Source: Sporobolomyces roseus
Lineage: Eukaryota; Basidiomycota; Microbotryomycetes; Sporidiobolales; Sporidiobolaceae
Length of the DNA stretch: 64,000 bases
Direction of reading: 5' to 3'
Assembly (NCBI GenBank): GCA_016617785.1
Contig: JADILM010000010.1
Coordinates: 930,001 to 994,000 of the forward strand
Positions 1 to 51,195 of the stretch are shown one piece after another; the first letter of the stretch is position 1; the number at the start of each line of letters is the position of its first letter. The notes under the pieces were generated by a model, which did not search any database, had not been told where the DNA came from, and saw only the letters and a list, made by a program, of their open reading frames with translations. A program made the translations under genes and the position numbers.

Positions 1-403
1 ACAATTCATCCATAATTCACCTCTCTCAATCCAATAAGATCCGTTAATTCCTCCGACGATCTCAGCTCTACAACTCCTACACTTTGTCCATAGCTCATTC
101 GGAGGTAGAGATGACTGTCTTGAGGCTAGGGAATGAGATGAAGAGGAGGAAAGGAGAGGGAACGGGGAGAAGAGGAGGGGAAGTTTCTGGAGATAGGCGA
201 GTGTAGCTGGATCCACGGCAGTCGTTTCCATTAAAGGAGGGTTCGATGGGGTTCTAGTGAGTTATAGTGAGTTGTAAGAGCGAGAGAAAGAGGTTTAACC
301 TTGCTTGATCTCTCAATCTTCTTGCCAACTCTGCCAGTCTCTCTACTGCTTCGTTGAGACTTTTAGACTGCTCTTGATCCACTACATGACTCTCTGGCTG
401 CAT
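1..403 (-). CDS. RNase P/MRP subunit Rpr2/Snm1-like, 5' part (cut by window edge)
   Basis: This is the first part of the gene found complete at 50210-51195. Translation starts at the ATG read from 403 to 401, with MQPESHVVDQEQ against MQPEGDRVDQEQ in the other copy, followed by a short helical segment rich in Glu, Leu and Arg. An intron separates this from the second exon. At that intron the copies differ most: this copy has an ATG after the intron in frame with the next exon, while the other copy seems to need a different acceptor. The zinc-binding half and the stop lie outside the window or at its edge. Function is assigned from the complete copy only. The neighbour TF-A is divergent, 662 bp away. 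Confidence 0.6.
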
Positions 404-1065
404 CACACGTCTCAAAAGTCGCCGTTAAAGTCCCCAGTTCTTCGAAGAAACCCTCTCAAGTCAGCAAACACCTCTCAAGGACAACGGAAGTGGGCGACGA
501 AACGGAGAGGAGGATCAAGCGCGGACTAAGAAGAACTGCGCTCGGGTCTACACGGAAACTTCCTTTTCCTCCTTTCAGGAGTCACAAGATTTTCGCAAGA
601 CCATGAGGTTTCTCGTTGGACAAACGCCTCTCTTTGCGTAAGAGAGGATTCTACTCAGTCAAGACGTTGGCGTATGTGCTCTCAGAAGAAGCTCCGACGA
701 GAAGGCGGGAACGACGAAGGACTTGTTCGCCGCCGCTGATGAGTTCTTCGGCAGAGAGAGAAGGTGGAAGGAACGCCTCTTCTTCGACCGCGTTTCCCCT
801 GCCAGTCGACGGATAGGCCTCGAAAGCGGGAGCGAGTGGGAGAAGAGGAGGTTTCCATCGAATTCTTCCCTGTTACCCACTCTTTCCCTCTTTCGCACTT
901 CCGACTCATCTCCTTCACTTCTTCAGCCCTCCTCAAGTTCAGTTGACAAGTATCCAATAACCTTCAATCCCTCTCATTCAGCAGAACCGTCTCTGCTCCT
1001 CACCTTCTCCTCTCTCCTCTCTCTTGCCGCCAACCTCCACTCCTCTTTCCTCCTCCATCTTCAAC
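404..1065. promoter_or_regulatory. Divergent intergenic region, Rpr2-like / TF-A (left)
   Basis: About 660 bp separate two divergent start codons, so this should hold both promoters. The side next to TF-A (about 890-1060) is a CT-rich leader. I see no conserved protein-coding exon; the ORFs here are on both strands, overlap, and are disrupted between the two arms. No specific factor site is claimed. Confidence 0.45.
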
Positions 1066-2098
1066 ATGGGCAAACCTGCAGCCGCAACCAAACCGGCACA
1101 GAAAGGAAAAGTTGTTCAACGTCACATGAGTTGCGAAGGAGTGAGTTTCTACTCTTGCCGTCTCGCTGTACTCATCTCTGATCATTAGCTGACTCACCCC
1201 TCTCTCTCTCTGATAGTGCCGCAAACGTAAAGCGAAATGTAGCAGAACATTCCCTTGTGCAGGTTGTACTATGCGAGATGTCGAGTGCGTCTGGACTTCG
1301 ATGCCACTGCGAGTTTCGCTCTCTCTCTTCCTCCCTCCCCCCTCTCGCTCAGAAGCTAATTCCCCATCCTCTCGAAATGATAGTCAACGTAAACTCGGTA
1401 CACCTGGACCGATCTCAATCTACGAGAACAGGCTAGAGATTGCAAGGTTGAAGAAAGTCGTCCATCAACTGGAAACTATCATCGCAGAACGAGATGCTGA
1501 ACAAGCAGCTTATCGATCACTCCTCCCTCCTCCTCCTCTTCAAGACCTGCTCTATCCCTCGACGAGCACTCCTACCTTCGAGGAATATCATGATGGAGAG
1601 AACTATTTCAACCTTTCGAATCCAGAAATTCCTCTTCTCCCTTACGAATCCACCTCGACTTCGCTACCTCCGTCGAACAACTACTCGCACATTCCCTACG
1701 ACGTCACTCCTTATCCTCAGCACCAGTCCCATGAAGAGTACCTTCACCCTCCTCCTGCTCGACCAGATTGGCTTCTCCATTCTCGAGCCTCGACTTGGCC
1801 TTCACCACTCCAATCAGTCAATCCTTACCATCTCCCGGAACAAGCTCTTTCTTCACATCATCCCTCTCTTCCATTCGACGCTCCTCAGCCTCTCCCAGCG
1901 GAAGAACCGATCACGCTTCCTCCGATTCATCCAGATCATTTTTCGTTCGAAGGAGGAGGAGGAGGTTCAATCGGAGACTCGTCACAAGCGTTCGCTCAAG
2001 AGAGTATAGCTATTGAGTATGATCCGCATCATCCCGAGCCGCTCTCAGGGAACTGGTCAGGAGTCACATCGTTCGAAGGTGCTCAAGTCATTGTTTAG
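1066..2098 (+). CDS. Zn2Cys6 transcription factor TF-A (left copy)
   Basis: Three exons (1066-1140, 1217-1308, 1384-2098) give 293 aa. The zinc cluster spans exons 1 and 2: CEGC, then RKRKAKC, SRTFPC, AGC and a sixth Cys in MRDVEC, which is the Cx2Cx6Cx5Cx2Cx6C spacing of fungal binuclear cluster proteins. A short linker and a Leu-rich coiled coil (ENRLEIARLKKVVHQLET) follow, as is usual for dimerising members. The rest is Pro/Ser/His-rich with no recognised middle homology domain, so the protein is short for the family. It should act in the nucleus as a DNA-binding regulator; the targets are unknown. It converges on TF-B with 182 bp between stop codons. Intron 2 begins with GC instead of GT here, whereas the mirror copy has GT. 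Reading through that intron stays open in this copy and would add residues after the cluster. Confidence 0.85.
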
Positions 2099-2280
2099 CT
2101 TTTGTCTCTTACTTTCCTCTCGCTTTGCTCTCTTTCACTCGCTGGTCGAGTACGTTATGGACAAGATTACTTTTAGGTACAAATTGAGGGAAGTTTAGGG
2201 TACGAAGGGGAAAGGGGAAGGGAGTCTAGTGTCTGTGTATTTAGCGTGTTTTGTTGCGAAAGTCGATTCATTCTCTACCT

Positions 2281-3899
2281 TTAATCATCGTTGAGCAAGT
2301 TCCTGAGAGTAGGAGTAACGACTCGACGTCCTGGAGATAACGAGCGAGATCCTTCATCTTCCCCCTCCTCGACGACTTCTTTCTTGATGTTCGTTTTCAT
2401 TCCTTCTCCTCCATCCAACTCTCGTTTCTCATCCCTCACCGCCGAGATAGGAGTATAAGGTTGAACAATTCCCGTCAATCGAGGAGAAGTGACGTGTTCT
2501 TCTCTCGAGGAAGAGAGCGAAGGCCAGGATTTCGTAAAGCTTGAGAGTGATTCAAATCCTTTCGATCTTGCAGTTGACGAGAGAGGAAGGAAGGAAGCTG
2601 AAGTAGGAGTCGAAGAGTATACAGGAGTAGGAAGGACGTAGTGAGGTCGACGAGAGGAGGAAGAAGGGTGGGAAGAGGAAGCGAGCGCTGATCGAAGGTG
2701 AGGAGAAGAGAGGGCGCTTGTGAGAGATGGTACGAGGTGTTGTTGACGACTATGTACGAGGGAGGGGATCTTGAGAGGAGGTAAGGTCGAGAAGGAAGAA
2801 CGAGGTACAGGGCGAGGTCGATCCGTCGAAGAGGAGGAGGAAGAGGGATTCATGAAAGTCGAGTTTCGAGGATCTGTTGCAACTCGATGAGCTGGTGAGG
2901 TCGACGTCCCGGCCCTCTGTGAAGAAAAGGAGTTCAGACGGACGATCGGCATCTCGAAGGTAGTGTGGTTTGAGGAAGGAAGAGGAGGAAGAGATCGAGC
3001 GATGGGTCGAAGGAGTACTGGAGACGTCGACGCGGACTTCGGGGGTTTGATTCGCGAAATCGGCACTGATGGATCGATCGCAGGTCGATAGTCCTTGACG
3101 AGCTTTTGAGCTTTCGAAGGAGGTCCTTTCTCGATTCGTCCTTGAATGTTGTCGTTCGCATCCCTGAATCGTTTGTGTCCCAATTGATCTGGACGAATAG
3201 CCAAGGGTCCTCCTTCAGCGAGTCTCTTTGCTTCGATAGCCATCGATTCGAGTTCGTGAGGAGTGAGTCGAAGGACTTTCGAAAGTGTCGCAACCTCCCT
3301 TCGAAGTCGAATGATTTCCGCTCTGTTCGCTTCAAGTTGAGATGGTCGTCTGCAGTGTTCTGGAGTCAGTATCTCGACAGCGTGAGGGATGTGAGAGAGC
3401 TGCTCACGCCGCCGCCTCGTGTCCGCCTGCTTGAGACCAAGTACAAGCCATTCCTCGCATCGCACCTTTTGAAACGAGAAAGAGAGAAGAGTCAGCAAAC
3501 GACGATGAGAGGAAAGAAGTAAAGCGACTCACAAGCCGCACATGGTTTGTTGCGATCACACTGTCGAGAGAGAGGAGAGATCAGCGGGAGAGGGAGAAGA
3601 GAGAAGAGCAAAAGACCGCTCACTCTTTGTTTTGCGCTTCGACATTGATCGCAAGACCTCACACTCGAGCGTAGATTGGTGAGCTTTGGTTTGACAATAC
3701 GGCGCTGAGGCGGAGGAGCGGAAACAGTCGGAGTCGAATCGGAAGGAGGAGGAGAAGCTTTGCAAAGGGATTTGAATCTTGAAGCGAGGGAGACGGTAGG
3801 AACTCGGATATTGGGTTGTTCCGGTTCTGAATCTTGGATCTCAATGTATTCGTGATCACCCTCTTCATCAGAGGAAGGCGGAGGTGAAGGAGTTGGCAT
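2281..3899 (-). CDS. Zn2Cys6 transcription factor TF-B (left copy)
   Basis: Four exons on the minus strand (3899-3624, 3560-3533, 3465-3408, 3349-2281) give 476 aa. The N-terminal ~75 residues are Pro/Ser/Glu-rich. The zinc cluster is split over three exons: CDQCRSAKQR, then CDRNKPCAAC, then MRGMAC, with normal six-Cys spacing. A coiled-coil-like helix follows (EANRAEIIRLRREVATL). The remaining ~300 residues are Ser/Pro-rich and low in complexity, with a basic SPGRRVVTPTLRNLL end. ATG 3899 was chosen because the upstream in-frame extension is a pyrimidine-rich leader. It is a nuclear DNA-binding regulator by family, of unknown target. It converges with TF-A. It differs from the mirror copy by one codon in length and by scattered substitutions, mostly in the low-complexity tail. 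Confidence 0.85.
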
Positions 3900-4291
3900 C
3901 GGAAGAGTAGAAGTTGAAGTGGGATGTAAGTAAGGGGGAAAGGGAGAGAGAGAAGAGGAGAGAGACGGACTGCAAACAAACAAAGGGGAAACTCCGCTTG
4001 CTCCGCGCTCGACGGTCCATCGACCGATCTCCGAAAGGAGTGCTCGAGCCCCTCGCAAGCTGGAGAAGGGGACTGTGCTTCGGTCTAGTGAAGGAAACCT
4101 CGTTGAAAGTTGCGACTCGGAAGATGCTGAATCGCTAGTCGAAGTATGTCGGGATTAGACAGTCTCTTCGAAAGGGGCAGGAGACGCAGAGAAGTGGGAA
4201 ACAACGACTCCTTCTCGAAACTTGCAGCGATTCTCAACCCTTGAGCATTTGCGCTTGCTCCCTTTGAAGTGGTCGAGGCCGATTTGAGAGT
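3900..4291. other. TF-B upstream region (left)
   Basis: This stretch lies between the 3' end of gene C and the TF-B start, both on the minus strand, and should hold the TF-B promoter and leader. The mirror stretch (46242-46736) is clearly homologous but carries indels. Open frames here are short and not shared in a consistent frame, so I annotate no gene. Confidence 0.4.
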
Positions 4292-5146
4292 CTAGAGATC
4301 GACGATACGAACGGTCAGAAGGTCACTCTCAAGCAAGGGAAAGAAAGTACGAACGATTCGAAGGAGCGAGACGAACAGTTTCGTCGCCGAGTCGTGCAAG
4401 CTAGGTATCGCCGAGAGACGATACTCAGCTGTACAAGGTGCTAAATGCGAGGTACCTTTGTCGTTCTCGGGAAGAAGTGGGAGTTGTTCGTCCCGTAACG
4501 CCGGAATCGAGGAGGAAGAAGCGTCGGAGTCCATTTGTGTGCGACGACGATGGTGATCTGAAGCATAGGGATCAGCACGCTTAGCGAGAGACGAGCTGCG
4601 AGAAACGGGAAACAACGAAGCTCACCTTCTTGGGTTAAGGTCCCATTGCCCTTGTTGGCTACTCGCTCGATCGTGTTGGACTTAGGGGACGTCGAGCAGG
4701 CAAAGTGTTAGGTAGAGGCGTTTGAAGGTTGTTCCGAAGAGACAGAGATCGAGGATGAAGTCGAGGTATCTCTGGAGAACGATCACGAGAAAGGCTCGCA
4801 AGATAGCTCCCTTCAATCCTCCTTCACGAGCGTCCTTGTTCCCAAGAGCTCGAGTGGAAGCGAGTCCATAGACTTCGTCGAACAAGTTACGTTGATTGAC
4901 TATTGAGATCGAGATTTAAGTCAGTCAAGGTGAAGGGAGGAAGAACAGGGAGGGAAGCTCACTCGAATAAGCTTCGCGACTCCTAGACATGCTGATACGA
5001 GCCTCATATCTACAGATCTGCAAGTGAGTTGGAGCACGAGCAGAGGGGGAATCAGTACGAAAACAAAGAGGGATCAGAAACTAGACGCACCCTCGAAGAA
5101 CCTGTCGATCTGCTTCAACAACGCCCTCCGGACTCAATAGTTCCAT
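4292..5146 (-). CDS. Unrecognised short gene C (left copy, frame broken relative to right copy)
   Basis: I do not recognise the family. A plausible first exon begins at ATG 5146 (MELLSPEGVVEADRQVLR). Short introns follow, then an exon beginning near 5009 with MSRSREAYS, and a conserved exon at about 4910-4682 with NQRNLFDEVYGLASTRALG and a hydrophobic stretch around LRAFLVIVLQRYLDFILDL, possibly one membrane segment. In this copy the reading frame ends at TAA 4684-4682. In the mirror copy a one-base difference just after the VIVLQ codons keeps another frame open into a further exon (DHHRRRTQMDSDASSSSIP here, 4562 downwards). One of the two copies is therefore frameshifted. It could be a decaying gene in either arm. 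The first exon has no matching ATG in the mirror copy. Confidence 0.35.
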
Positions 5147-5574
5147 TCATCTTGATGTCGTGGTCGAAGCGTGACCCGCTCGAACTCAATGACAGCCGAC
5201 CAGTAAGCAGAAACGAGAGAACCTGAGAATTTTGGAGTCGACCCATTCTACGCGAAAGTTTCGCTCAGTGGACACCATGGTCCGACGGCAAAGACCGAGC
5301 ATCTAGTACGCTATCTACGCGTCGAACACCCTGTAGAAGAGCTTGTTGCTTGACTCAACCGATTCAGATTCGTCCAATTTCCAATGCGAGAACGAAGCGC
5401 AGACCAAAGCGAGCACACAGATCCGAAGCAAGGTCAATCTCTGGCAAATCCCTGAGCTCACAGACAGATCAGAAGCAAGTGAAGTGAGTTGTAGGAGGAC
5501 AAGGTTCGATTCGAGGAGACTCTTTGCTTTCCCTCCTTCTCCTCACTCTCGAACCTCGCGTGCTCAACTAGAGC
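5147..5574. promoter_or_regulatory. Divergent intergenic region, gene C / MSH5 (left)
   Basis: About 430 bp lie between the presumed gene C start and the MSH5 start, with the two genes divergent. It is conserved in the mirror arm with indels. I see no further gene and no recognisable factor site. Confidence 0.35.
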
Positions 5575-8500
5575 ATGTCAAGAGCATCTTCAGCTACTAG
5601 TCAAGCCCGTCTAAGTAGCGCTGCAGCTTCAGGTCGCTCTCGTCAATCGAACGCTTCACTCAACTTTCCCTCTCAACCTCACAACTCTCGACAAGTCAGA
5701 TGGGGATCAGATCAAGTTATAGAACGCTCTCAGGATATGCAAGAACCGCCTCAGCTCAATTCAACAGGTGATAACGAAGGAGCGGAAGAGGAGGGAATGA
5801 ACGGAATCTGTCTAGCGATCTCTGTCGTTCGAGGCAAGCTAGGGTGTGCTTATTACGACTCGAACGACAACAAGATCTACTTCCTCGGAGATCAACCCGA
5901 TTCAAGCGAGTTTGATTTGGTCAATTTGGGTACGATTGACTTCTCCTCTCCTTCTTCGCAATCTCGACAACTCACCTTCCTTTATGCTCGACGACAGTGC
6001 TCGGACAACTCCTACCGACAAACGTGCTCTCTCCCGTTACAGCAGATTCCGCTTTTCTCGATTTCCTCGAATCTACTCTCTCGACTCTTCCAAACGCTTC
6101 TTCCTCTACTGGAGTATCCTCTGCTGCTTCGTTCTCCACTTCAAGTGATCGTCCTACTCGGTTCGAGATTCGTCCAGCTCGTGAATTCTATGCTGGACAA
6201 GGTCGTCACGCACTTTCACAGCTTGAGATTCGAGAAGGAGCTTGGTATCGAGTCGATGAAGAGAACATGCAAGCTTTGAGCGACGACATCAATAGCAACG
6301 ACAGGGGACGACGCTCTTCAAGAAGGTATCAAGGAGTAGAGGGAGATGCGCTCAAGAGGAATCGGGAACTTCGTTTGGAATCTTTCATCAACGGTCTCGA
6401 GAACAGTCCTCTGACCGTAAGCTCCAAGCCCTCCTTCCCTTCCTAGTGCTCACTCATGACGTGTGTGAGTAGCTCGGATGCGCTGGAGCGTTGCTCGCAT
6501 CGATCACGAGGATGAAAGCTGCTGCTGGAGATCTCGAAGCTACTCGATTCGAAGTCAGCGGTCTCGAACTGATGAAGCTGTCAGTTCACCGAGAGCTCTC
6601 TCGACGATGCCTTGCTGATTCTGACTCTCCCGAAACAGTGATAAAGTGATGCACATCAACGCAGAATCTTTGACGTTTGCGAACCTTTCCCGTCTTTTCG
6701 TTCATTCGTTCCGATAGCTGACTCAGTGAAGTTTCCTCGACAGCTCCCTCGCCATCTTTGACCAAGAGGCACATGCATCGATGCATTCCAGTCGAGGAAA
6801 GGAAGGGTTGTCGATCTTCGGTTAGTCTTCCCCTCGCCTCTTCTCACACAAGTTCCGCTCAACTGAAGCAAACCTGATCATAGGCATCGTCAATCTGACT
6901 CGTACTCCTCTTGGATCTGCACTCATGCGTCAATGGCTCATTCGCCCTTCTCTTGAGCTCGAAGTTATCGAACAGCGACACGAAACGGTCGCTTGCTTCC
7001 TTCGCACAGAGAATGGTGTGTCAATCGACGCCTCTCTCCTGCGACGTCTAACTCACTCTGAGCCTCTACGATCAAGCTTCTGCCGTCGACGCGATTCGTA
7101 AAGAGCTCAAGATGGTGAAGAATGCAAACAAAGCTCTCGCTACTTTGTTTCACGGGAGAGGCAACTTGAGGGAATGGCTCATCCTCTGGCAGGTCAGTCA
7201 CATCCCATGCGTTTCATCGAGCCTTCGACTGACAGATTCTTTCGATCAGATGCTCTATGCTGCTATCCTCATCTTCGATGCAACCCTTGTTCTCACTCAT
7301 TCTCGCAAAGTTCACATCGTCGAAAAGGTTAGTCGCTCATTCTCTTATTTTGTGAGAGAAGGGTATAGATCGACGTAATTACGCTTTCAGCTCAAATCTG
7401 CTATCGATGTCGAAGCTTTCCGATCAATCGGTAAAACGATCAACGAAGTTGTGAGGACCCTATTTCAGCTTCCCTCTTCTACCGTCCGATTTTGCTCATA
7501 CATCACACTACTTCCCCTCAGATCGACTGGGAAACGACAGTATCGCAGAAAGGAAGAGTTTGCGTTCGTCAAGGGATCGATACTGGTCTCGATGAACTCC
7601 GTCGTCAACTTAACGGGCTCCCTTCGCTTCTCGTGAGAGCGTCACTCAGCTTCGAGTTCTCGACTGTACTGATTTGAAAACTTGATCTGACAGTCACGCA
7701 TTGCTAGCGACCTCGCTGTTCGACTTCCTGAAGAACTCATTCCCGAACTTTCGTTCATCTACTTCCCTCAACTCGGTTACCTCATTCGCACTGCTCCCAA
7801 CAACGATGCAGAATACCTCGAAGAGTGTGCTAGACATGACTTTGAATATCAAGTGAGCAGTTCCTGCGACTCGTCGATTCAAAAGTGCTTGACTGACGAA
7901 ACGAGAGTTGCGAAGAATCTAGTTCCTGAGCGATTCTTCAGCTTACTTCAAGAGTGATCAATGTCGAGATCTCGATGAGCATTTAGGAGACTTGCAAAGT
8001 CTAGTTGTTGGCGAGTTTTCCAGACTCCCTGCAAGTCAAGAATGTGATCTGACAAACTCGTCTTGAAACAGACAAAGAGATTGAAATCAGTTCGTACTCC
8101 TTCTTCGAGCTGCTCATCAGTCATCGCTCATAGTCAGGTGCTCTCCCGTGATCAGTACAAGCTCTTCTCGACCAAATTGCGATTCTCGAGGGACCTGTCA
8201 AAGCGACGACCGAAGTTCTCTCAGAATTCGATTGGTGAGCTTTCCGGCTCTAACTCTTCTTTCTAGTACTTTACTGATCGTCTTGAATCAGTCTCCTCGC
8301 TTTCGCTGAAGCTGCGAGGCTTTATGACTGGATTCGACCCAAAATGACGGAATCTCCAGTTTGTCGAATTCAAGGGTAAGTCTCTCCTTCACCTGTTCCA
8401 TCCATCTAGTACAACCTTTACTGACCCCTGCTGCGGGTGATAGCGGTCGTCACCCTCTCTCTGAACTCTGCGTCAGTTTCGTCAAGAATGATACCGACTT

Positions 8501-10054
8501 GGTTCGTTCGATTCACTTCTCCTTTCGACTGCTCGATTACACTCATGAGTGGCACATCTGTGTAGATTGGAGGTCGAGGTATCGATTGGCGTGTCAAGGA
8601 TGAAGACGAGGGAGGAGGAGGACAAGCGACAAAGTCGAAACTTTCGAACGAGAGGAGCATGATTGTCGTTGCCGTGAGCTCAGCTACCACTCTCGTCGTT
8701 GCTCGATGATAAATACTGAATCAAGAGGCTGCAGGGCGCAAACTTCAGCGGAAAGAGTATCTACCTCAAGCAAATCGCTCTGATTACTTACATGGCTCAT
8801 CTCGGTTCACTACCTCTCACTCCTGATCTCTACGTGAACATACTGACTGACTCCCTTAATGAATAGGATGCTTCGTTCCCGCCGACAAAGCTTTGATTGG
8901 ATTGACTGATCGAATCATGACTCGAGTAACTACGAGAGAATCGATTACGAAAGTGAGTCAATCTCCCTCTTCCTCCTGCCGCTGAGTTATTCCTGATCCC
9001 GCACATTCTCGACAGGGATCTTCTGCTTTCATGATCGACTTGCAACAAATCTCGTTCGTTTCGTCTCCTCCTCCTCCTTTCTTCGCACATCGAGCTGACC
9101 TCCTTCGCTCTCCAATCAGATACATGCTTCGCAATGCTACTCGTCGCTCACTTCTCATCATCGACGAATTCGGCAAAGGTACCGATTCTAACGATGGAGC
9201 TGGATTGTTTTGTGGTTTGATCGAATTCCTTCTCGGATTAGGTCGAGATACAGTGAGCTCTTTCACAGATCTCTCGTGTTGAATCGAGCTGAAATCTCTC
9301 CGTCCTCCACAGCCTCGCGTCGCTGTCGCTACTCATTTCCAAGGTGTGTCTCTCGCTGATTGATCGAGATAGTAAACTGACTCCCCTCGTTTCGCATTAA
9401 AGCTGTTTTCGCAAACGGTCTCTTGTCACGCGCACTACCCGTTCACCTCGCTCATATGGACGTGCTCATTCACGAGACTCCTTCGTCTCTCATCAAGTCC
9501 TCTAGCACTTCGAATGGAGATACTTTGAACTCGTCTGCGAAAAGGACTGCAATTTCGCAAGGTATCGAAACTTTGACCTATCTCTACCGGTACGCCTGCC
9601 CCCCTCCCAGATACCCTCGATCCAGAGACTGATCAACAGTCGCACTAGCCTCTCTCCCGGTTTGATGGCTTCTTCGCACGCTGCTGCCTGTGCTCGACTT
9701 TTCGACCTCCCCGAAAAAGTGGTACAGCGCGCTTCGTTCGTCACTGAAGCACTCAACGACTTCAACATCGAAGCTATACTCCGTAATCCTGTTGGAGAAG
9801 ATGAGGAAGTAGTGAGTTCGCAGGAGAAGGAATGGCAAGATAATGAAACCATTGCGAAGAGATTCGTCGATTGGGATCTCGATGGTTTGGAGGGTGGAAT
9901 AGATGGATACGACGTCGAGGAACTCAAAGTAAGGTTGACGGAACTGCTTGATGTATCGTGGAGTGCTGGAATTGCGACGCGGAGCTTTCTGTTTGCTTTC
10001 TCTCAGTCTTGCGATTTGGTTTCGTCGATTTTCTGGCGCTCGGGAAGTTCCTGA
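5575..10054 (+). CDS. MSH5: MSH5, meiotic MutS homologue (left copy)
   Basis: This is a MutS-family ATPase. With MSH4, MSH5 forms the MutS-gamma clamp that stabilises meiotic recombination intermediates and promotes crossovers. About 17 exons run from ATG 5575. The N-terminal domain has the MSH5-like CLAISVVRGKLGCAYYD. The core has FGIVNLTRTPLGS and MRQWLIRPSLELEVIEQR. The ATPase has Walker A GANFSGKSIYLKQ at about 8734, FMIDLQQIS, and Walker B LLIIDEFGKGTDSNDGAGLF near 9150. The SGKS and DEFGKG residues are intact. The last exon reads past the point where the mirror copy stops and adds 32 residues (SWSAGIATRSFLF...) from single-copy DNA, ending at 10052-10054. Introns differ more between copies than exons do, which suggests selection on the protein. 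It lacks an N-terminal mismatch-binding domain of MSH2/MSH6 type, as expected for MSH5. Confidence 0.92.
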
Positions 10055-10061
10055 ATGCGCT

Positions 10062-10068
10062 ACCCTAA
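10062..10068 (+). promoter_or_regulatory. Telobox-like ACCCTAA upstream of the ribosomal protein gene
   Basis: The heptamer ACCCTAA lies about 165 bp before the uL23 start codon. Teloboxes bound by Tbf1-type factors drive ribosomal protein genes in several fungi. The match is short and could be chance. Confidence 0.3.
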
Positions 10069-10232
10069 AAATGAGCGAATTTGGGAGCAACGGTTAAGCG
10101 GGCTCACTGCAGAGTGAGTTTTGCGAGGTTTCAGATTTTTTTGGAGTTTGAGAGGGAGAGAAGAGAAGAGAGAGAGAGAGGGAGCGGATTTTAGATCCTC
10201 GTTCTCGCCTGCCGACCCGACCAGTAGTAGCC

Positions 10233-33761: not shown

Positions 33762-34090
33762 TTGCTTGAAGTGGACGAGGTTGAAGAGTTGAATGAGTGC
33801 TTCTCCCTGCTCAAAGTGGGTTCTGCGAATCTCTCCTATCCTTTCCTTCAGACTAGTGCCTTGAAGCAGTGCAGAGGGAGTGTGGAGTGAAAGGGCAAGA
33901 GGTATGTGCGTTCATCGATCGATCCACGAATTGACGAAAAAAGTTGAGAACGATTGAAAGTGCAGGTTATGAGGAGTAGCTACAATACAAAGGAAAGAGA
34001 GAGAGAGAGTCAACAAGAGTGATATGAGCAGTTGTACAACGAAAGAAGAGAGAAAGAGAGAATGCGAAAGAGAGAGTCTATACAAAACGA
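33762..34090. other. Region between permease 1 start and DUF3712 gene end
   Basis: It should hold the permease 1 promoter and the 3' UTR of the DUF3712 gene. AG-rich runs lie at about 33990-34080. No gene seen. Confidence 0.35.
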
Positions 34091-40486: not shown

Positions 40487-40674
40487 AAGCTTCTCGCAAC
40501 TCCCCCCTGTTAGTTCTCGTCTTTCGTTTATTTGTATATGGGTTCACTCGTAGGGTTATCAGTACCTTTGCTAGTTCTGCGGAATAGCATTTTCTCGCGT
40601 TTCGTCGATCTTTTGGCAGTATGCGACGTTCGAGTCAGCGAGAAAGCTTTGTCTCGTTTTCATTTCGAACATTC

Positions 40675-43600
40675 TCAAACGTCAAGCAGTTCCATCAAAC
40701 TCGCCTTGAGCTCTTCGACGTCGTATCCATCTCCGCCTCCCTCCGAACTATCGAGATCCCAATCGACGAATCTCTTCGCAATCGTTTCATTGTCCTGCCA
40801 ATCCTTCTCTTGCGCATTCACGACTTCCTCATCTTCTCCAACAGGATCACGGAGTATAGCTTCGATGTTGAAGTCGTTGAGTGCTTCAGTGACGAACGAA
40901 GCGCGCTGTACCACTTTTTCGGGGAGGTCGAAAAGTCGAGCACAGGCAGCGGCGTGCGAAGAAGCCATCAAACCGGAAGCGAGGCTAGTGCGAACATTGG
41001 TCAGTCTATAAATAGATCGAGGGTATCTGAGAGGGAGGGAGACGTACCGGTAGAGATAGGTCAAAGTTTCCACACCTTGCGAAGTTGCAGTTCTCTTCGA
41101 AGACGAGTTCGAATCATCTCCGTTCGAAGTGCTAGAGGACTTGACGAAAGACGAAGGAGTCTCATGAATGAGCACTTCCATATGAGCGAGGTGAACGGGT
41201 AGTGAGCGTGACAAGAGACCGTTTGCGAAAACAGCTTGAATCGAATCGAATCAAATCAGCGCGCACTCTCGGTTGATCAGTGACAAACTCACCTTGGAAG
41301 TGAGTAGCGACTACGACGCGAGGCTGTGGAGGAGCGAGAGAGTTCAGTTCAACTCATCCCGCGAGATCCCTGAAAGAGCTCACCGTATTTCGACCTAATC
41401 CGAGAAGGAACTCGATCAAGCAGAACAACCCAGCTCCATCGTTAGAATCGGTACCTTTGCCAAACTCGTCGATGATGAGAAGTGAGCGACGAGTAGCGTT
41501 GCGAAGCATGTATCTGATTGGAGAGCTAAGGACGTCAGCTCGATCTGCGAAGAAAGGAGCGAGGAGACGAAACGAACGAGATTTGTTGCAAGTCAATCAT
41601 GAAAGCAGAAGAGCCCTATCGAAGATCTAAGAGATCAGTGAAACCGCATTCGAAGAAGGAAGAGGAAGATTGAATCACTTTCGTAATCGATTCTCTCGTA
41701 GTTACTCGAGTCATGATTCGATCAGTCAATCCAATCAAAGCTTTGTCGGCGGGTACGAAACACCCTATTGATTTGAGGAGTCAGTCGAGAAGTTTACGCA
41801 GAGATCAGGAGTGAGAGGAAGTGAACCGAGATGAGCCATGTAAGTAATCAGAGCGATTTGCTTGAGATAGATGCTCTTTCCGCTGAAGTTTGCGCCCTGC
41901 AGCCTAACAATTCGGTGTATCTTATCGAACGACGACGAGAGTGGTAGCTGAGCTCACGGCAACGACAATCATGCTCCTCTCGTTCGAAACATCCGACTTT
42001 GTCGCTTGCCCTCCTCCTCCCTCGACTTCGTCCTTGACACGCCAATCGGCACCTCGACCTCCGATCTACTCAAACACGGACCTTATCAGCCTGATTGAGC
42101 AGTCAACAAGAGAAAAGAAACGAAACGAATCAAGTCGGTATCATTCTTGACGAAACTGACACAAAGTTCAGAGAGAGGGTGTCGACCACTGTCACTCGCA
42201 ATAAGGGTCAGTCCAAGGAATCGTAAGCTTCAGACCGGGTGAGGGCTATGGACTTGCCCTTGGATTCGACAAACTGGAGATTCCGTCATTTTGGGTCGAT
42301 TCCAGTCATAAAGCCTAGCAGCTTCAGCGAAAGCGAGGAGACTGATTCAAGACGATCAGTAGAGTACTAGAAAGAAGATGAGGACTCGGAAAGCGCACCA
42401 ATCGAGTTCTGAGAAGACTTCGATGGTTGCTTTGACGGGACCCTCGAGAATCGCAACTTGATCGAGTAGAGCTTGTACTGATCACGGGAGAGGCTCTGAC
42501 GATGAGCGGTGACCGATGAATAGCTAAAGAAGGAGTACGAACTAATTTCGATCTCTTTGTCTGTTTCGAGACGAGTTTGTCAGATCACTTCGAAAGTTGA
42601 GAACAATCTAAGATGAGATACTTACCAACAACCAGGCTTTGCAAATCTCCCAGATGTTCATCGAGATCTCGACATTGATCACTCTTGAAGTAAGCTGAAG
42701 AATCGCTGAGGAACTAGATTCTTCGCAACTCTCGTTTCGTTAGTCAAGCATTTTTGAATCCAATCATCGCAAGGACTGCTCACCTGATATTCAAAGCCAT
42801 GTCTAGCACATTCCTCGAGGTATTCTACATCGTTGTTGGGAGCAGTACGGATCAGGTAGCCGAGTTGAGGGAAGTAGATGAAGGAAACCTCGGGAATGAT
42901 TTCTTCAGGAAGTCGATCAGCGAGGTCACTCGCAATGCGTGACTGCCGATCGGAGCTATGATTCAGTACGTTCAACATCAAGCAGTTGAAGTGGTACTCA
43001 CGAGGAGCGAAGGGAGACCATTGAGTTGACGACGGAGTTCATCGAGAGCAGTATCGATCCCTTGACGAACGCAAACTGGTCCTTTCTGTGAGACTGTCGT
43101 TTCCCAATCAATCTAGAAAGGTATAATGAGGTGTGTTCAGGGTTCCACGATAGCAGAGGAGATGTGAAAGAGGGAATGCTCACGACTTCGTTGATCGTTT
43201 TACCGATTGATCGGAAAGCTTCCACATCGATAGCAGATTTGAGCTACAGCGTCGACACGTCAGTCCAAATCCTTCTCTCGCAATAAGGAAGTGAACGACT
43301 GACCTTTTCGACGATGTGAACTTTGCGAGAATGAGTGAGAACGAGGGTTGCATCGAAAATGAGGATAGCAGCGTAGAGCATCTGATTGAGGTATACTGTC
43401 AGCACAATGCTCGGTGGAGAAAGAGACGTCTGACTGACCTGCCACAGAACGAGCCATTCCCTCAAGTTGCCTCTCCCGTGAAGCAAAGCAGCAAGAGCTT
43501 TGTTTGCATTCTTGACCATCTTGAGCTCTTTACGGATCGCATCGACGGCAGAAGCTAGTAGCGAACACTGAGATTGAGTGAGACATTACAGGAGAGAGAC

Positions 43601-45064
43601 AGCAATTCAATTCACCATTCTCTGTGCGAAGGAAGCAAGCGACCGTTTCGTGTCGCTGTTCGATAACTTCGAGTTCGAGAGAAGGGCGAATGAGCCATTG
43701 ACGCATAAGAGCGGATCCGAGAGGAGTACGAGTCAAGTTGACGATGCCTACGAGCAGATTGATTCAGTTGAGCGGAGCTTGTGTGAGAAGAATCGAGGAG
43801 GATGCTTACCGAAGATCGACAATCCTTCCTTTCCTCGACTGGAATGCATCGATGCATGTGCTTCTTGATCAAAAATGGCGAGGGAGCTGTCGATGAAACT
43901 TGACTCGATCAGCTATGGGAATGGACGAACGAAAAGAGAGGAGAGGGTCGCAAACGTTAAAGATTCTGCGTTAATCTGCATCACTTTGTCGCTGTTTCAG
44001 GCAAGTCACAGTGAGCGTAACATCGTTGACGGAGCTCTCGGTAAACTGACAGCTTCATCAATTCGAGACCGCTAACTTCGAATCGAGTAGCTTCAAGATC
44101 CCCTCCAGCAGCTTTCATCCTCGTGATCGATGCGAGCAATGCTCCAGCGCATCCAAGCTACTCACACGCGCTATCAGTGAGCACCAGGAAGTAAGAGAAG
44201 AGCTTGGAGCTTACCGTCAAAGGACTGTTCTCGAGACCGTTGATGAAAGATTCCAAACGAAGTTCCCTGTTCCTCTTGAGCGCATCTCCCTCTACTCCTT
44301 CATTCCTCCTCGAAGAGCGTCCACCTCCAAATCTCTCCCTATCGTTGCTATTGATGTCGTCGCTCGAAGCTTGCATGTCCTCCTCATCGACTCGATACCA
44401 AGCTCCTTCTCGAATCTCAAGCTGTGAAAGTGCGTGACGACCTTGTCCAGCATAGAATTCACGAGCTGGACGAATCTCGAATCGAGTAGGACGATCATTT
44501 GAAGTAGAGAACGAAGCAGCAGAGGATGATCCAGTAGAGGAAGAAGCGTTTGGAAGAGTCGACAGAGTCGATTCGAGGAAATCGAGAAAAGCGGAATCTG
44601 CTGTGACGGGAGAGAGTACGTTCGTCGGTAAGAGTTGTCCGAGTACTAGCGACGAGTATCAAGGTGAGTCGTTGTGATTGCGAAGAAGGAGAGGAGAATC
44701 TAAGCGTACCCAAATTGGCCAAATCAAACTCGCTTGAATCGGGTTGATCTCCTAAGAAGTAGATCTTGTTGTCGTCCGAATCGTAATAAGCATACCCTAG
44801 CTTGCCTCGAACGACAGAGATCGCTAGACCGATTCCGTTCATTCCCTCCTCTTCCGCTCCTTCGTTATCACCTGTTGAATTGAGCTGAGGCGGTTCTTGC
44901 ATATCCTGAGAGCGTTCTATAACTTGATCTGATCCCCATCTGACTTGTCGAGAGTTGTGAGGTTGAGAGAGAAAGTGGGGTGAAGCGTTCGACTGAAGAG
45001 AGCGAACTGAAGCTACAGTGCTACTTGCGCGGTGTTGACTAGTAGCTGAAGATGCTCTTGACAT
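40675..45064 (-). CDS. MSH5: MSH5, meiotic MutS homologue (right copy)
   Basis: This is the mirror copy of the gene at 5575-10054, with the same start, exon order and domains. The N-terminal domain reads LAISVVRGKLGYAYYD. The core has NLTRTPLGSALMRQW. Walker A GANFSGKSIYLKQ is near 41895-41860. Walker B LLIIDEFGKGTDSNDGAG is near 41480-41430, and the C-terminal helix has LFDLPEKVVQRASFVTEALN. The protein stops directly after MELLDV at TGA 40677-40675. Copy-specific changes are an in-frame loss of Gly in LFC(G)LIEF just after Walker B, a moved splice acceptor before the last exon that adds four residues (41005 upwards), and an extra Phe-Gly-Gly-rich indel near 44330. All introns keep usable splice sites as far as I checked. 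It looks expressible. It is presumably a partner of MSH4 in meiotic crossover formation, like the other copy. Confidence 0.92.
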
Positions 45065-45490
45065 GCTCTAGTTGAGCACGCGAGGTTCGAGAGTGAGGAG
45101 AAGGAGGGAAAGCAAAGAGTCGCCTCGAATCGAACCTTGTCCTCCTACAACTCACCTCACTTGCTTCTGATCTGTCTGTGAGCTCAGGAAGACCACCACA
45201 GATCGGCCTGGCTTCGGATCTGTGTGCTTCCTTCGCTCTCCGTTTCGTTCTCGCACTGGAAATTCTACAAATCTGAATCGGTTGAGTCAGGCAATAAGCT
45301 CTTCTACAGGGTGTTCGACGCGTAGATAGCGGTACTAGATGCTCGATCTTTGCCGTCGGACCACCGTGACCGCTGAGCGACACTTTCGCTTAGAATTGGG
45401 TCGACTCGCAAATTCTGAGGTTCTCTCGTTTCTGCTTACTTGTCGACTGTCATTGAGTTCGAGCGGGTCACGCATCGACCACAACCTTAA
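45065..45490. promoter_or_regulatory. Divergent intergenic region, gene C / MSH5 (right)
   Basis: Counterpart of 5147-5574 with indels. It probably carries the MSH5 promoter. Open frames crossing it are present in both arms only because the DNA is duplicated. Confidence 0.35.
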
Positions 45491-46241
45491 GATGACTGGA
45501 GTCACTGAGTCCGGAGGTTGACGTTGAAGCAGATCGAGAGGTTCTTCGAGGGTGCGTCCAGTTTCTGATCCCTCTTTGTTTTCGTACTGATTCCCCCTCT
45601 GCTCGTGCTCCAACTCACTTGCAGATCTGTAGATATGAGGCTCGTCTCAGCATGTCTAGGAGTCGCGAAGCTTATTCGAGTGAGCTTCCATCCCTGTTCT
45701 TCCTCCCTTCACCTTGACTGACTTAAATCTCGATCTCAATAGTCAATCAACGTAAGTTGTCTGATGAAGTCTATGGACTCGCTTTCACTCGAGCTCTTGG
45801 GAACAAGGACGCTCGTGAAGGAGGATTGAAGGGAGCTATCTTGCGAGCCTTTCTCGTGATCGTTCTCCAGCAAACCTCGACTTCATCCTCAATCTCTGTC
45901 TGCTCGGAACAACCTTCAAACGGCTCTACCTTACCCTGCTCTGGCTCGACGTCCCCTATGTCTAAAAGCATCGAGCGAGTAAACACCAAGGGCAAAGGGA
46001 CCTTGATGACAAACGAAGAAGGTGAGCTCCGATCTTTCCCGTTTCTCGCAGCTCGTCTCTCGCTAAGCGTGCTCATCCCTATGCTTCAGATCACCATCGT
46101 CGTCGCACACAAATGGACTCCGACGCTTCTTCCTCCTCGATTCCGGCGTTACGGGACGAATCAAGTCCCACTTCTTTCAGCAACCGACAGAGCTACCTCG
46201 CAATCGCTTGTGGTATCAAATTCTCTCTCGGCGATACCTAG
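45491..46241 (+). CDS. Unrecognised short gene C (right copy)
   Basis: Mirror copy of the gene at 4292-5146, family not recognised. Its coding frame is longer than in the left arm. After an exon with MSRSREAYS (from 45651) and an intron, the frame beginning LSDEVYGLAFTRALGNKDAR (about 45755) stays open past VIVLQ through a Ser/Thr-rich stretch to TNEEG. An intron (GTGAGC at about 46021 to CAG at about 46089) leads to DHHRRRTQMDSDASSSSIP and a stop TAG at 46239-46241. The left copy shows RYLDFILDL in place of the Ser/Thr-rich stretch because of a one-base length difference. The hydrophobic version looks more like natural protein, so this copy may be the shifted one, in spite of its longer frame. 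No in-frame ATG matches the left copy's first start. Confidence 0.35.
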
Positions 46242-46736
46242 CTTGCACAACTCGGCGACGAAACTGTTCGTCTCGCTCCTTCGAATTGTTCGCACTTTCT
46301 TCCCCTGAGAGTGACCTTCTGACCGTTCGTATTGTGGATCTCTAGGCTCTCAAATCGACCTCGAACACTTCACAGGGAGCAAGCGCAAATGCTCAAGGGT
46401 TGAGAATCGCTGCAAGTTTCGAGAAGGAGTCGTCGTTTCCCACTTCTTCGCTCCTCTGCCCCTTCCGAAGAATCTGTCTAATCCCGACATACTTCGACTA
46501 GCGTTCAGCATCTTCCGAGTCGCACCTTTCAACGAGGTTTCCTTCACTAGACCGAAGCACAGTCCCCTTCTCCATCTTACGAGGGGCTCGAGCACTCCTT
46601 TCGGAGATCGGTCGATTGACCGTCGAGCGCGGAGCAAGCGGACTTTCCCCTTTGTTTGTTTGCAGTCCGTCACTCCTGTGCTCTCTCTCTCCCTTTCCCA
46701 TTCACTTCACCTCTCACTTCAACTCCTGCTCTTCCG
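46242..46736. other. TF-B upstream region (right)
   Basis: Counterpart of 3900-4291 and flanks, with a pyrimidine-rich leader before TF-B (about 46660-46735). No separate gene is supported. Confidence 0.4.
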
Positions 46737-48352
46737 ATGCCAACTCCTTCTCCTCCGCCTTCATCCGATGAAGAGGGTGATCACGAATACGTCGAGATCC
46801 AAGATTCAGAACCGGAACAACCCAATATCCGAGTTCCTACCGTCTCCCTCGCTTCAAGATTCAAAACCCTTTGCAAGGCTTCACCTCCTCCTTCCCAATC
46901 TACTCCGACTGTTTCCGCTCCTCCGCCCCATCGCCGTATTGTCAAAGCAAACCTCACTAATATACGATCAAGTGTGAGGTCTTGCGATCAATGTCGAAGC
47001 GCAAAACAAAGAGTGAGCGGTCTTTTTCTTCTTCTCTCTTCTCCTCTCTCCCGCTGATCTCTCCCTTTCAATAGTGTGATCGCAACAAGCCATGCGCAGC
47101 TTGTGAGTTGCTCTATCTCTATCCTCTCGTTGTCATTCGCTGACTCTTCTCTTTTTCTCTCGTTCTGAAGGTGCGATGAGAGGAATGGCTTGTACTTGGT
47201 CTCAAGCAGGGGGACATGAGGCTGCGGGGTGAGCAACACTCTCACAAACCTCACGCTGCTGAGATACTCACTCGAGAATGAAATAGACGTCCATCTCAAC
47301 TCGAAGCGAACAGAGCGGAAATCATTCGACTTCGAAGGGAGGTTGCGACACTTTCAAAAGTCCTTCGTCTCACTCCTCACGAACTCGAATCGATGGCTAT
47401 CGAAGCAAAGAGACTCGCTGAAGGAGGACCCTTGGCTATTCGTCCAGATCAATTGGGACACAAACGATTCAGAGATGCGAACGACAACATTCGAGGACGA
47501 ATCGAAACAGGACCTCCTTTGAAGGCTCAAAAGCTAGACAAGGATCGACGACCTGCGATCTATCCTTCACGACCGACATCGCAAACCAAACCCCAAAAAT
47601 CGGCGTCGACATCTCCAGTCCTCCTTCGACCCATCGCTCGATCTCTTCCTCCTCTCCCTTCGTCGAACCGCACTACCTTCGAGATGCCAGTCGTCCGTCT
47701 CAGCTCCTCTTCCTTATCGCAGGACGGGACGACGACCTCACCAGCTCATCGAGTGACAACAGATCCTCGAAACTCGTCTTTCATGAATCCCTCTTCCTCC
47801 TCCTCTTCAACGGATCGACCTCGCCCTGTACCTCGCTCTTCCTTCTCGACTCTACCTCCCCTCAAGATCCCCTCTCTCGTCCATAGTCGTCAACAACACC
47901 TCCAACCCTCCCTCACGAGCGCACTCTCTTCTCCCCACCTTCGATCAGCCCTCGCTTCCTCTTCCCACCCTTCTTCCTCCTCTCGTCGACCTCACTACGT
48001 CCTCCCTACTCCTGTATACTCTTCGACTCCTACTTCAGCTTCCTTCCTTCCTCTCTCGTCAACTGCAAGATCGAAAGGATCTGAATCACTCTCAAGCTTT
48101 ACGAAATCCTGGCCTTCGCTCTCTTCCTCTCGAGAAGAATATGTCGCTTCTCCTCGATTGACGGGAATGGTTCGACCTTATACTCCTATCTCGGCGGTGA
48201 GGGATGAGAGACCAGAGGTGGAAGGAGGAGAAGGAGTGAAAACGATCATCAAGAAAGAAGTTGTCGAGGGGGAGGAAGAAGCACCTCGTTCGTTATCTCC
48301 AGCACATCGAGTCGTCACTCCTACTCTCAGGAACTTGCTCAACGATGATTAA
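46737..48352 (+). CDS. Zn2Cys6 transcription factor TF-B (right copy)
   Basis: Four exons (46737-47012, 47075-47102, 47171-47228, 47287-48352) give 475 aa, with the same exon lengths as the left copy except for one codon less in exon 4. The zinc cluster CDQC, KQRC, NKPC, AAC, GMAC is identical in its cysteines and nearly so between them. The following helix EANRAEIIRLRREVATLSK matches except for minor changes. The Ser/Pro-rich tail differs at many positions (for example ETGPPLKAQKLDKDRR against EKGPPSKAQKLVKDYR), but the C-terminal RVVTPTLRNLLNDD is the same. It should bind the same kind of DNA site as the left copy. It converges with TF-A (193 bp between stops). Regulatory target unknown. 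Confidence 0.85.
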
Positions 48353-48545
48353 AGGTGGAAAACGACCTGAATTCCGTAAAAAGAGAACAGACTGAATTTG
48401 TACAAGTACAGACACTAGACTCCCTTCCCCTTTTCCCATTTGTACCCCCAAACTTCCCTAAATCTGTACCTAAAAGTAATCTTGTCCATAGGTTACTCGA
48501 CCAGCGAGTGAACCAGCGAGTACAGCGAGAAAGCAAAAGAAAAAG

Positions 48546-49564
48546 CTAAACAATGACTTGAGCACCTTCAAACGATGCGACTCCAGACCAATTCTCTGAG
48601 AGCGGCTCCGGGTGACGAGGATCGTATTCTATTGCGATACTCTCTTGAGCGAGCGCTTGTGACGAGTCTCCAATTGGACCTTCTCCTCCTCCTTCGAACG
48701 AAAAATGATCTGGATGAATCGGAGGTAGTTTGATCGGTTGTACAGCGGGAAGAAGTTGAGCAGCATCGAAAGGCAGAGAGGAGTGGTGTGAAGGAAGAGG
48801 CTGTTCAGGGAGATGGTAAGGATTGACTGATTGAAGTGGTGAAGGCCAAGTCGAAGCTCGAGAATGGAGAAGCCAGTCTGGTCGAGCAGGAGGAGGGTGA
48901 GTGTACACTTCATGGGACTGGTGCTGAGAATAAGGAGTGACGTCGTAGGGAATGTGCGAGTAGTTGTTCGAGGGAAGAAGCGAAGTCGAGGTGGATTCGT
49001 AAGGGAGAAGAGGAATTTCTGGATTCGAAAGGTTGAAATAGTTCTCTCCGTCATGATATTCCTCGAAGGTAGGGGTACTCGTCGAAGGATAGGGTAGGTC
49101 TTGGGGAGGAGGAGGAGGGAGTAGTGCTCGATAAGCTGCTTGTTCCGCATCTCGTTCTGCGATGATAGTTTCCAATTGATGGACGACTTTCTTTAACCTT
49201 GCAATCTCCAACCTGTTCTCGTAGATCGAGATAGGGCCAGGTGTACCTAGTTTTCGTTGACTATCATTGCGAGAGGGTATGGACTCAGCTTCTGAGCGAG
49301 AGGGGAGGAAGAAAGAGACGGAGAAACTCACAGCGGCATCGAAGTCCAGACACACTCGACATCTCGCATAGTACAACCTGCACAAGGGAATGTTCTGCTA
49401 CATTTCGCTTTACGTTTGCGGCACTGGATCAGAGAGGGTGGTGAGTCAGCTTTTGATCAGAGACAACTTTAGACAGGATAGAGACTCACTCCTTCGCAAC
49501 TCATGTGACGTTGAACAACCTTTCCTTTCTGTGCCGGTTTGGTTGCCGTTGCAGATTTGCCCAT
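48546..49564 (-). CDS. Zn2Cys6 transcription factor TF-A (right copy)
   Basis: Three exons (49564-49490, 49423-49332, 49260-48546) give 293 aa, the same length as the left copy. All six zinc-cluster cysteines (CEGC, KAKC, TFPC, AGC, DVEC) and the coiled coil IARLKKVVHQLETIIAERD are conserved. Intron 2 here starts with a normal GTGAGT and is 71 nt. Reading through it would shift the frame, so splicing is obligatory, unlike in the left copy. Differences from the left copy cluster in the Pro/His-rich middle and near the acidic end, and all are substitutions. The divergent neighbour is the Rpr2-like gene. Confidence 0.87.
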
Positions 49565-50209
49565 GTTTAAGATGGAGGAGGAAAGAGGAGTGGAGGTTGG
49601 CGGCAAGAGAGAGAGGAGAAGGTGAGGAGTAGAGACGGTTCTGCTGAATGAGGGTGATTGAGGGTTATTGACTACTTGTCAACTTAAACTTGAGGAGGGC
49701 TGAAGAAGTGGAGGAGATGAGTCGGAAGTGGGAACGAGGGAAAGAGTGGGAAAGAGGGAAGAATTTGATGGAAACCTCCTCTTCTCCCACTCGGTTGATC
49801 CCGCTTTCGAGGCCTATCCGTCGACTGGCAGGGGTACTCGAAAGAGGCGTCTCTTCAACCTTCTCTCTCTGCCGAAGAACAGCTCAAACAAGTCCTTCGT
49901 CGTTCCGCCTTCTCGTCGGAGGTCCTTCTGAGAGCGACATACGCTAACGTCTTGACTGAGTAGAATCCTCTTCTTACGCAAAGAGAGGCGTTTGTCCAAC
50001 GAGAAACCTCATGGTTTTGCGAAATTCTTGTGACTCCTGAAGGAGGAAAGGAAGTTTCCGAGTACACCCGTGCGCAGTTCTTCTTAGTCCGCGCTGGATC
50101 CTCCTCGTCGTTTCGTTGCCCACTTCCGTCGTCCTTGAGAGGTGTTTGCTGACTTGAGAGGGTTTCTTCAAAGGAATGGGCACTTTGACGGCGACTTTTG
50201 AGACCATTG
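49565..50209. promoter_or_regulatory. Divergent intergenic region, TF-A / Rpr2-like (right)
   Basis: Counterpart of 404-1065, 645 bp, with the same AG-rich (minus-strand CT-rich) leader next to TF-A. Several indels separate the copies here. No gene is supported. Confidence 0.45.
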
Positions 50210-51195
50210 ATGCAGCCAGAGGGTGATCGAGTGGATCAAGAGCAGTCTAAAAGCCTCAACGAAGCATCAGAGAGACTGGCAGAGTTGGAAAGAAGATTGA
50301 GAGATCAAGCAAGGTTAAACCTCTTTCTCTCGCTCTTACAACTCACTAGAACTCATTCAAACCCGCTTTTAAGACTCGCTAGATGGATCAAAGTACAGTC
50401 GATCCAGCTACACTCGCCTATCTCCAAAGACTTCCACTCCTCTTCTCTCCTTTCCCTCTCCTTTCCTCCTCTTCATCTCATTCCCTAGCCTCAAGACAGT
50501 CATCTCTACCCTCGAATGAACTATGGACAAAGTGTAGGAGCTGTAGAGCTGAAGTAGTGGGAGGAATCAGCGGATCTTATTGGATTGAGAGAGGTGAATT
50601 ATGGATGAATTGTCAAGGGTGCGGATGGGTCACCAAACAAATTGAGACGAGTGAGAAGGGAAAGGGAAAGGAAGGGTTTGAATCGGTCAAGAAAAGGAGG
50701 AGGCTCAAAGCGAAGAGACGGGAAGAATCGAATTCGCATCCAACCTCTTTCCTTTCGCAACCGACTCCAGTTCACTCTCCTCTCCTCAAGACGAAGCGTA
50801 AGAACGTGGAAGGTACTTCAGAGGGATCACGAGCTATTCCCACGTCAGTTAAGGTCGGATCGTCGACCTCGAAATCGCAAACTCCAACTTCTTCGAATTC
50901 GCTTCTCTCCTCGAAAGCCCTCGACACCGCTCGACTTCTCTCCAGATCAAGCAGTGTATCTTCTATCTCTTTACATCCGCACACCACCTCAGCCTCTCCC
51001 GCTCCGTCCACAGCTCCTCCTGCACCTACTTCACTCGATTCGAAACTTGCTGCGACCAAGAAACGGAAACGAAGTAAACAGCCTAGTGGATTGGCGGAGC
51101 TGCTTGCAAAGAAGAAGAAGGATGACGGATCAGGTGGAGGAAGCGGTGGTGGGGGTGGAGGGTTGGGTTTACAAGATTTCTTGCAGGGATTGTGA
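50210..51195 (+). CDS. RNase P/MRP subunit, Rpr2/Snm1/Rpp21-like
   Basis: ATG 50210 opens a short helical exon (MQPEGDRVDQEQSKSLNEAS). After one intron (donor 50314, acceptor probably at about 50391) the main exon reads VDPATLAYLQRLPLLFSPFP, then a zinc-ribbon-like arrangement ELWTKCRSCRAEVVGG and ELWMNCQGCGWVTKQ. Two CxxC pairs about 30 residues apart, preceded by a helical N-terminus, match the Rpr2/Snm1/Rpp21 family of protein subunits of tRNA-processing RNase P and the rRNA-processing RNase MRP. The rest is Lys/Ser/Pro-rich and ends in a Gly-rich stretch and LQDFLQGL. The tail is much longer than in yeast Rpr2. The N-terminal half is duplicated at 1-403; whether the tail is duplicated cannot be seen. 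Confidence 0.65.

Follow-up and report, generated by a model that had tools for sequence, protein, structure and literature searches.

Diverged inverted arms with MSH5 around a 30.7-kb block in a basidiomycete genome: an old duplication with probable gene conversion between its arms

In this work, we describe a locus on contig C10 of a 22.4-Mb, 15-contig basidiomycete genome assembly (one assembly, from one strain of a yeast-like fungus), in which two long inverted arms, here called A and B and each bearing a copy of the meiosis gene MSH5, enclose a block of largely single-copy DNA. The stretch analysed, 64 kb at C10:930001-994000, is the window; position 1 is its first base, negative values give bp to its left, and the flanks were fetched as well. 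The arms were located by self-BLAST of the window, which returned a single long inverted match (1-9954 against 50613-40679, 88.4% identity), and were then realigned with the flanks added, when the match extended to -579 to 9954 against 51193 to 40679, at 88.3% over 10,599 columns. Across 294 kb of C10 the next longest repeat pair measures 2.3 kb. The arms are thus 10.5 kb in size and lack the near-identity seen between the Saccharomyces repeats with which they are compared below. An earlier note on this DNA, made from its letters alone, had placed the arms at 1-9958 and 40675-50616; its inner edges are right within a few bases, but on each side the arm extends 579 bp beyond the outer edge given there. 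The same note put the divergence of the arms at about one base in ten, in agreement with our alignment, and counted five genes per arm, where we find four.

Gene models came from a simple self-trained gene finder, with exons checked by hand, and were compared by protein searches and by searches of the genome itself. The four predicted genes of each arm, all with open frames, are g38 (g56 in arm B), two tail-to-tail Zn2Cys6 transcription factors and MSH5 (Table 1). The product of g38 has 270 aa, is encoded without introns and matches no Pfam family at E 0.001. The best named matches of both Zn2Cys6 factors are proteins of Sporobolomyces roseus (65% over 86% of the query for one, 61% over 100% for the other). 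MSH5 is identified by its MutS_III (PF05192) and MutS_V (PF00488) domains and by its similarity to a protein named MSH5 (61% identity across 48% of a query from the N-terminal part); the best named match of its N-terminus is from Rhodosporidiobolus azoricus, at 38%. Taken together, the named homologues put the genome close to Sporobolomyces. Genome-wide, MutS_V matches fall in both arms and in five further places. To our knowledge, a duplicated MSH5 is unusual. The arm-A copy is open for 981 codons and lacks the stop codon found in arm B where the homology ends, its frame continuing to 10054; between 9957 and 10054 it may carry an additional intron or a short tail at the C-terminus. Two arm-A introns, 1309-1383 and 8011-8071, appear by inspection to be of the GC-AG type, and the one in MSH5 begins with GT in arm B.

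Table 1. Positions of the arms, the enclosed block and the features of the arms (window coordinates)
Feature	Position	Strand	Basis or remark
Arm A (left inverted repeat)	1..9957	+	Self-BLAST; 579 bp more beyond the left end of the window
g38, 5' part, arm A	1..231	-	Gene finder; coding sequence extends to -581, outside the window
Zn2Cys6 transcription factor 1, arm A (g39)	1066..2098	+	Pfam PF00172
Zn2Cys6 transcription factor 2, arm A (g40)	2281..3899	-	PF00172
GDH2 fragment, arm A	4732..4999	-	Intron included
MSH5, arm A	5575..9957	+	MutS_III and MutS_V domains
Enclosed block, about 30.7 kb	9958..40675		Between the inner edges of the arms
Arm B (right inverted repeat)	40676..51195	-	Self-BLAST
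MSH5, arm B	40675..45064	-	Stop codon at the homology edge; aligned columns free of stops
GDH2 fragment, arm B	45643..45909	+	Intron included
Zn2Cys6 transcription factor 2, arm B (g54)	46737..48352	+	Gene finder
Zn2Cys6 transcription factor 1, arm B (g55)	48546..49564	-	Gene finder
g56, arm-B copy of g38	50383..51195	+	Homology stops at the final codon

Between factor 2 and MSH5 lies a stretch of about 1.7 kb with no predicted gene, which holds a fragment of GDH2, the gene for NAD-dependent glutamate dehydrogenase. The source gene is at about -12723 to -8874, some 10 kb left of arm A. The fragment, about 270 bp long, is present in both arms on the strand opposite MSH5 and is among the least diverged non-coding stretches between them (12/270 differences). 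Its use as a clock was tried and dropped: by comparison of the arm-A fragment with GDH2, the intron looks younger than the arms (6/63 sites differ), but the fourfold sites do not (7/29).

Copy number was checked with four probes, three in the enclosed block and one in the right flank. The block probes 20300-23200 and 34000-36400 and the flank probe 57400-60400 matched only themselves, and the third block probe, 12500-15200, matched its tandem neighbour as well as itself. The arms are therefore long inverted repeats around a gene-bearing block that, by the three probes inside it, is not itself repeated. Genes of the block with domain support are those for uL23, GPP34, COG5 and an amino-acid permease; three others, CCT6, a second permease and an ABC transporter gene, owe their names to inspection only. 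The tandem neighbours, at 11882-15126 beside the inner edge of arm A, are two related genes with 60-69% DNA identity in parts and sub-threshold F-box matches. The two amino-acid permease genes, at 31591-33761 (the one named by inspection) and 37690-40486, lie in opposite orientation and are 67-73% alike over short stretches.

Neither arm seems to be in decay. Coding indels between the arms, across all four genes, are of 3, 12 and 3 bp, and the nonsynonymous (dN) and synonymous (dS) divergences are 0.035 and 0.214 in g38, 0.037 and 0.293 in factor 1, 0.054 and 0.188 in factor 2, and 0.034 and 0.224 in MSH5, giving dN/dS ratios of about 0.13-0.29. The two copies of each factor are also equally distant from S. 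roseus (98/327 and 96/327 residues for one factor, 90/244 and 89/244 for the other). To judge from these sequences, both copies appear to be under purifying selection. Repeat-induced point mutation (RIP) was considered as a cause of the differences between the arms and was ruled out: C-to-T differences are rarest before A, and there is no CpA excess.

The silent differences between the arms are unevenly spread. Along g38, dS per 45 codons is 0.25, 0.33, 0.00, 0.03, 0.24 and 0.66. In our clustering test, the coding sequence is divided into bins that are equal in synonymous content, and the number of synonymous differences per bin is compared with 20,000 permutations; the bins of g38 held 7, 8, 0, 1, 0, 13 and 9 differences, a distribution equalled in unevenness by 3/20,000 permutations; for the four genes taken in order, 1/20,000 was as uneven. 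At fourfold sites alone, 156/1017 differ, with heterogeneity p values of 0.015, 6e-5 and 4e-6 for 12, 18 and 24 bins, and silent divergence per 300-bp window runs from 0.027 to 0.375. The longest tract identical in A and B, of 202 bp, is inside g38 (-229 to -28), and the next is of 139 bp. High-identity patches between the arms, which the earlier note had proposed as marks of recent conversion, are present in part, in the form of this range of silent divergence, the clustered synonymous differences and the 202-bp tract.

A further line of evidence comes from the 5' end of MSH5, which we compared with three relatives, P0001-P0003 (ENA and JGI records), whose MSH5 proteins were called straight through intron 1 and hence report its type. 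These relatives, as well as P0012 and P0022 used for the factors, were available as gene-caller proteins only. One intron-1 end and length class is shared by A, P0001 and P0002, and another by B and P0003. The exon-1 variant DPMSD is common to P0002 and P0003 and absent from A, B and P0001, A and B having the other variant, STGD. Within about 200 bases, A, B, P0002 and P0003 thus present all four combinations of exon-1 variant and intron-1 end. In exon 1, A and B differ at 13/118 positions and P0002 and P0003 at 8/117, while the cross pairs show 17-20 differences; over the intron and the start of exon 2, A and P0002 differ at 6/55, as do B and P0003, while the pairs A-B, P0002-P0003, A-P0003 and B-P0002 differ at 38-41, mostly through the change of frame. 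Read most simply, these data suggest that types A and B predate the split of these lineages and have exchanged sequence since. The earlier note had supposed that exchange is too rare to homogenise the arms fully, or that selection keeps them diverged; signs of partial exchange are found here, in the clustered synonymous differences and the MSH5 combinations.

The second factor was aligned with P0012 over 345 columns, after removal of the first 33 residues of P0012, which are not homologous. A and B differ from each other at 39/345 residues but from P0012 at only 29 (A) and 30 (B), and are therefore not each other's nearest. P0012 is A-like and B-like in separate runs (10 runs against 18.5 expected, p = 0.0025). 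Eleven pattern matches to relatives of this factor were obtained in IMG/VR, none of which was confirmed.

The limits of the arms show a pattern of their own, the homology stopping at most about 5 bp from the final sense codons of the two outermost genes, g38 and MSH5. Past the arms, the flanks give no alignment above the best of 200 shuffles: the outer flanks score 84 against a shuffled mean of 62.6 (s.d. 10.1, maximum 90), and the inner flanks 29 against 24.4 (s.d. 4.0, maximum 41). The outer score, about two s.d. over the mean, is a possible faint remnant of homology. Over the last 45 codons, dS rises to 0.66 in g38 and 0.62 in MSH5, against whole-gene averages of 0.21 and 0.22 (Fisher test, 1.8e-5 at 45 codons and 1.5e-5 at 60). 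We read this edge pattern as erosion, in which unselected flanks would have diverged beyond recognition while interior parts were refreshed.

In the reading that we hold to be probable, the locus is an inverted duplication of old date, and gene conversion has carried patches of sequence between its arms. There is fair support both for this conversion and for the A and B types being old, and the clustering of synonymous differences, in g38 and overall, together with the four MSH5 combinations, points to such exchange. An ancestral 10.5-kb block with g38, the two Zn2Cys6 factors and MSH5 would have been duplicated, the copies lying inverted on either side of about 30 kb of DNA, and both copies would have been kept under purifying selection. 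Later, non-allelic gene conversion would have swapped patches between the arms, so that some A-type and B-type stretches may have outlasted the splits between related lineages; by keeping interior parts alike while unselected flanks erode, it might also leave the homology to end at the last codons of the outermost genes. Some conversion events may have ended as crossovers, which would invert the enclosed block. Inversion could follow from occasional crossovers of this kind, but the data at hand are one assembly with one orientation and diverged arms.

Several observations weigh against this interpretation, and some of them would fit a simple inverted duplication without exchange, in which uneven divergence reflects uneven constraint and chance. 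Clustering is weak in factor 1 (340/20,000) and MSH5 (218/20,000) and absent in factor 2 (3287/20,000). At fourfold sites, the longest identical run is unremarkable (307/5000). At 9300-9599, none of 38 fourfold sites differ while 24/81 non-coding sites do, which is not as conversion would leave them. The MSH5 introns, with 346/1416 differences, are more diverged than the inner intergenic DNA, with 145/1661 and 71/810, and the latter may be constrained. The contrast in dS at the arm edges depends on the bin, the Fisher test giving 0.025, 0.013 and 0.024 at 15, 30 and 90 codons, and the comparison of the arm-A GDH2 fragment with its source is ambiguous. As for the relatives, their sequences are gene-caller proteins only and P0002 and P0003 need not come from one species; in exon 1, A lies at much the same distance from P0001 (12/117) as from B, with B and P0001 at 17/117. 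P0012 often has the S. roseus state, at 10/17 of its B-like and 7/16 of its A-like sites, and clustered change in one copy could therefore explain much of its runs. Factor 1 with P0022 is star-like (A-B 24/248; 26 and 28 of 246), and its runs test gives no mosaic (0.77). Duplication without exchange nonetheless leaves the fall of dS in the intronless g38 from 0.33 to 0.00-0.03, and its return to 0.24-0.66, without a cause in introns, and the exon and intron combinations of MSH5 would require either exchange or repeated multi-residue coincidence, so that we hold it to be unlikely.

A staggered-break inversion leaves an inverted duplication at both ends, and the arms might be the scar of a single such event with no exchange afterwards. 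The inverted duplicates around a largely single-copy block fit this idea, and the arm-A MSH5 without the edge stop, next to an arm-B copy with it, looks as if one junction were derived; it leaves unexplained, however, the synonymous jumps in g38, the four MSH5 combinations and the position of both edges at last codons, and we consider it quite improbable. That the assembly joined two divergent haplotypes head to head is more doubtful still, and in our view very unlikely. A divergence of about 11% could be haplotypic, and our data are an assembly only, but the probes in the block and the right flank have no second copy elsewhere, a single STE3 place was found in the genome, the flanks past the arms do not align and the relatives have both intron types; the copy-number probes likewise disfavour a haplotype duplication of the whole region. 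An active or recurrent flip-flop, in which arm-to-arm crossovers turn the 30.7-kb block round so often that the species has both orientations, is compatible with duplication followed by conversion and is a possibility that we entertain tentatively. Its geometry and size match those of the Saccharomyces flip/flop region (PMC9731477), and exchange between the arms is supported. The arms are 88.3% identical, however, against 97.6% in S. cerevisiae S288C, identical tracts do not exceed 202 bp, and one assembly gives one orientation; the Saccharomyces region itself stayed unchanged through some 53,800 mitoses and 950 meioses (PMC9731477). At 88% identity, and with identical tracts of 202 bp at most, the arms are unlikely to invert the block often at present. 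That inversion here drives a switching cassette, for mating type or otherwise, seems to us extremely improbable: in budding yeasts, mating-type switching by flip/flop has had at least 10 origins (PMC6692504), but the only STE3 place found in this genome is at C11:266514-267497. No pheromone receptor was seen among the Pfam-scanned genes of the window, a scan that covered some of its genes and did not include a search for homeodomain genes.

Two observations were made outside the window. A MutS gene lies about 16 kb from the STE3 place on C11. On C10, a cluster of repeats, mostly 82-90% alike and in both orientations, extends over C10:1020774-1091563 (window +90.8 to +161.6 kb) and includes the 2.3-kb inverted pair, whose members are about 31 kb apart; for one repeat unit, all five matches listed are on C10, at 1026-1093 kb. 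The cluster, which encodes unknown proteins, is possibly a lineage-specific family.

Among known systems, the closest published case is the flip/flop (FF) region of Saccharomyces chromosome XIV, and we class the locus described here as the same kind of structure, though not as a member of that exact system. The FF region consists of 24 kb enclosed by inverted repeats of 4.2 kb, which are homogenised and hold sporulation genes; all eight species have the repeats, which are 97.6% alike in S288C, the region is found in nature in both orientations, and conversion between the repeats is the proposed cause of the 24-kb inversion polymorphism (PMC9731477). The earlier note knew of no such fungal locus. 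For the gene content this holds in the open-access literature that we searched, which gave no paper on Sporobolomyces MSH5 and no title on fungal flip-flop repeats dealing with such a locus, but for the arrangement it does not, the Saccharomyces region being already known. By title, the papers retrieved on MSH5 duplication dealt with Daphnia and Aureobasidium, the one on concerted evolution of inverted repeats in basidiomycetes with a dikaryotic fungus, and the one for Sporobolomyces mating type and inversion with wheat rusts; none gave a chromosome-level Sporobolomyces genome. The two share long multi-gene inverted repeats around ordinary genes, gene conversion between arms and sexual-cycle genes within the repeats (sporulation genes there, MSH5 here); unlike the FF region, the present locus has 10.5-kb arms at 88.3% identity, patchy exchange, a single observed orientation and other genes, and belongs to another phylum. 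The duplicates left by a staggered-break inversion have the same geometry, but are by themselves a one-off scar without later exchange. In mammals, the arms of an X-chromosome inversion are near-identical. That inversion is recurrent and flanked by homogenised inverted repeats (as cited in PMC9731477), and it resembles our locus in having conversion-homogenised inverted repeats around an invertible block, whereas here the arms are diverged and inversion is hypothetical. The mating-type flip/flop systems of Ogataea and Komagataella (PMC6692504) also have inverted repeats around a block, which in those yeasts can invert; unlike them, our locus has diverged arms and, in a partial gene scan, no mating-type genes.

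What would the locus mean for these fungi? Even without inversion, the paralogues seem to swap patches, with gene trees changing within a few hundred bases. In a more far-reaching and rather doubtful scenario, the A and B blocks would have persisted through several speciations, shuffling exons but each retaining stretches of its own, with the 30.7-kb segment inverting occasionally in different lineages, as an independent basidiomycete counterpart of the Saccharomyces flip/flop region. If inversion were found, two fungal phyla would each have sexual-cycle genes placed within inverted repeats that conversion maintains, and comparison could address the question, left open in PMC9731477, of what preserves the likeness of such repeats.

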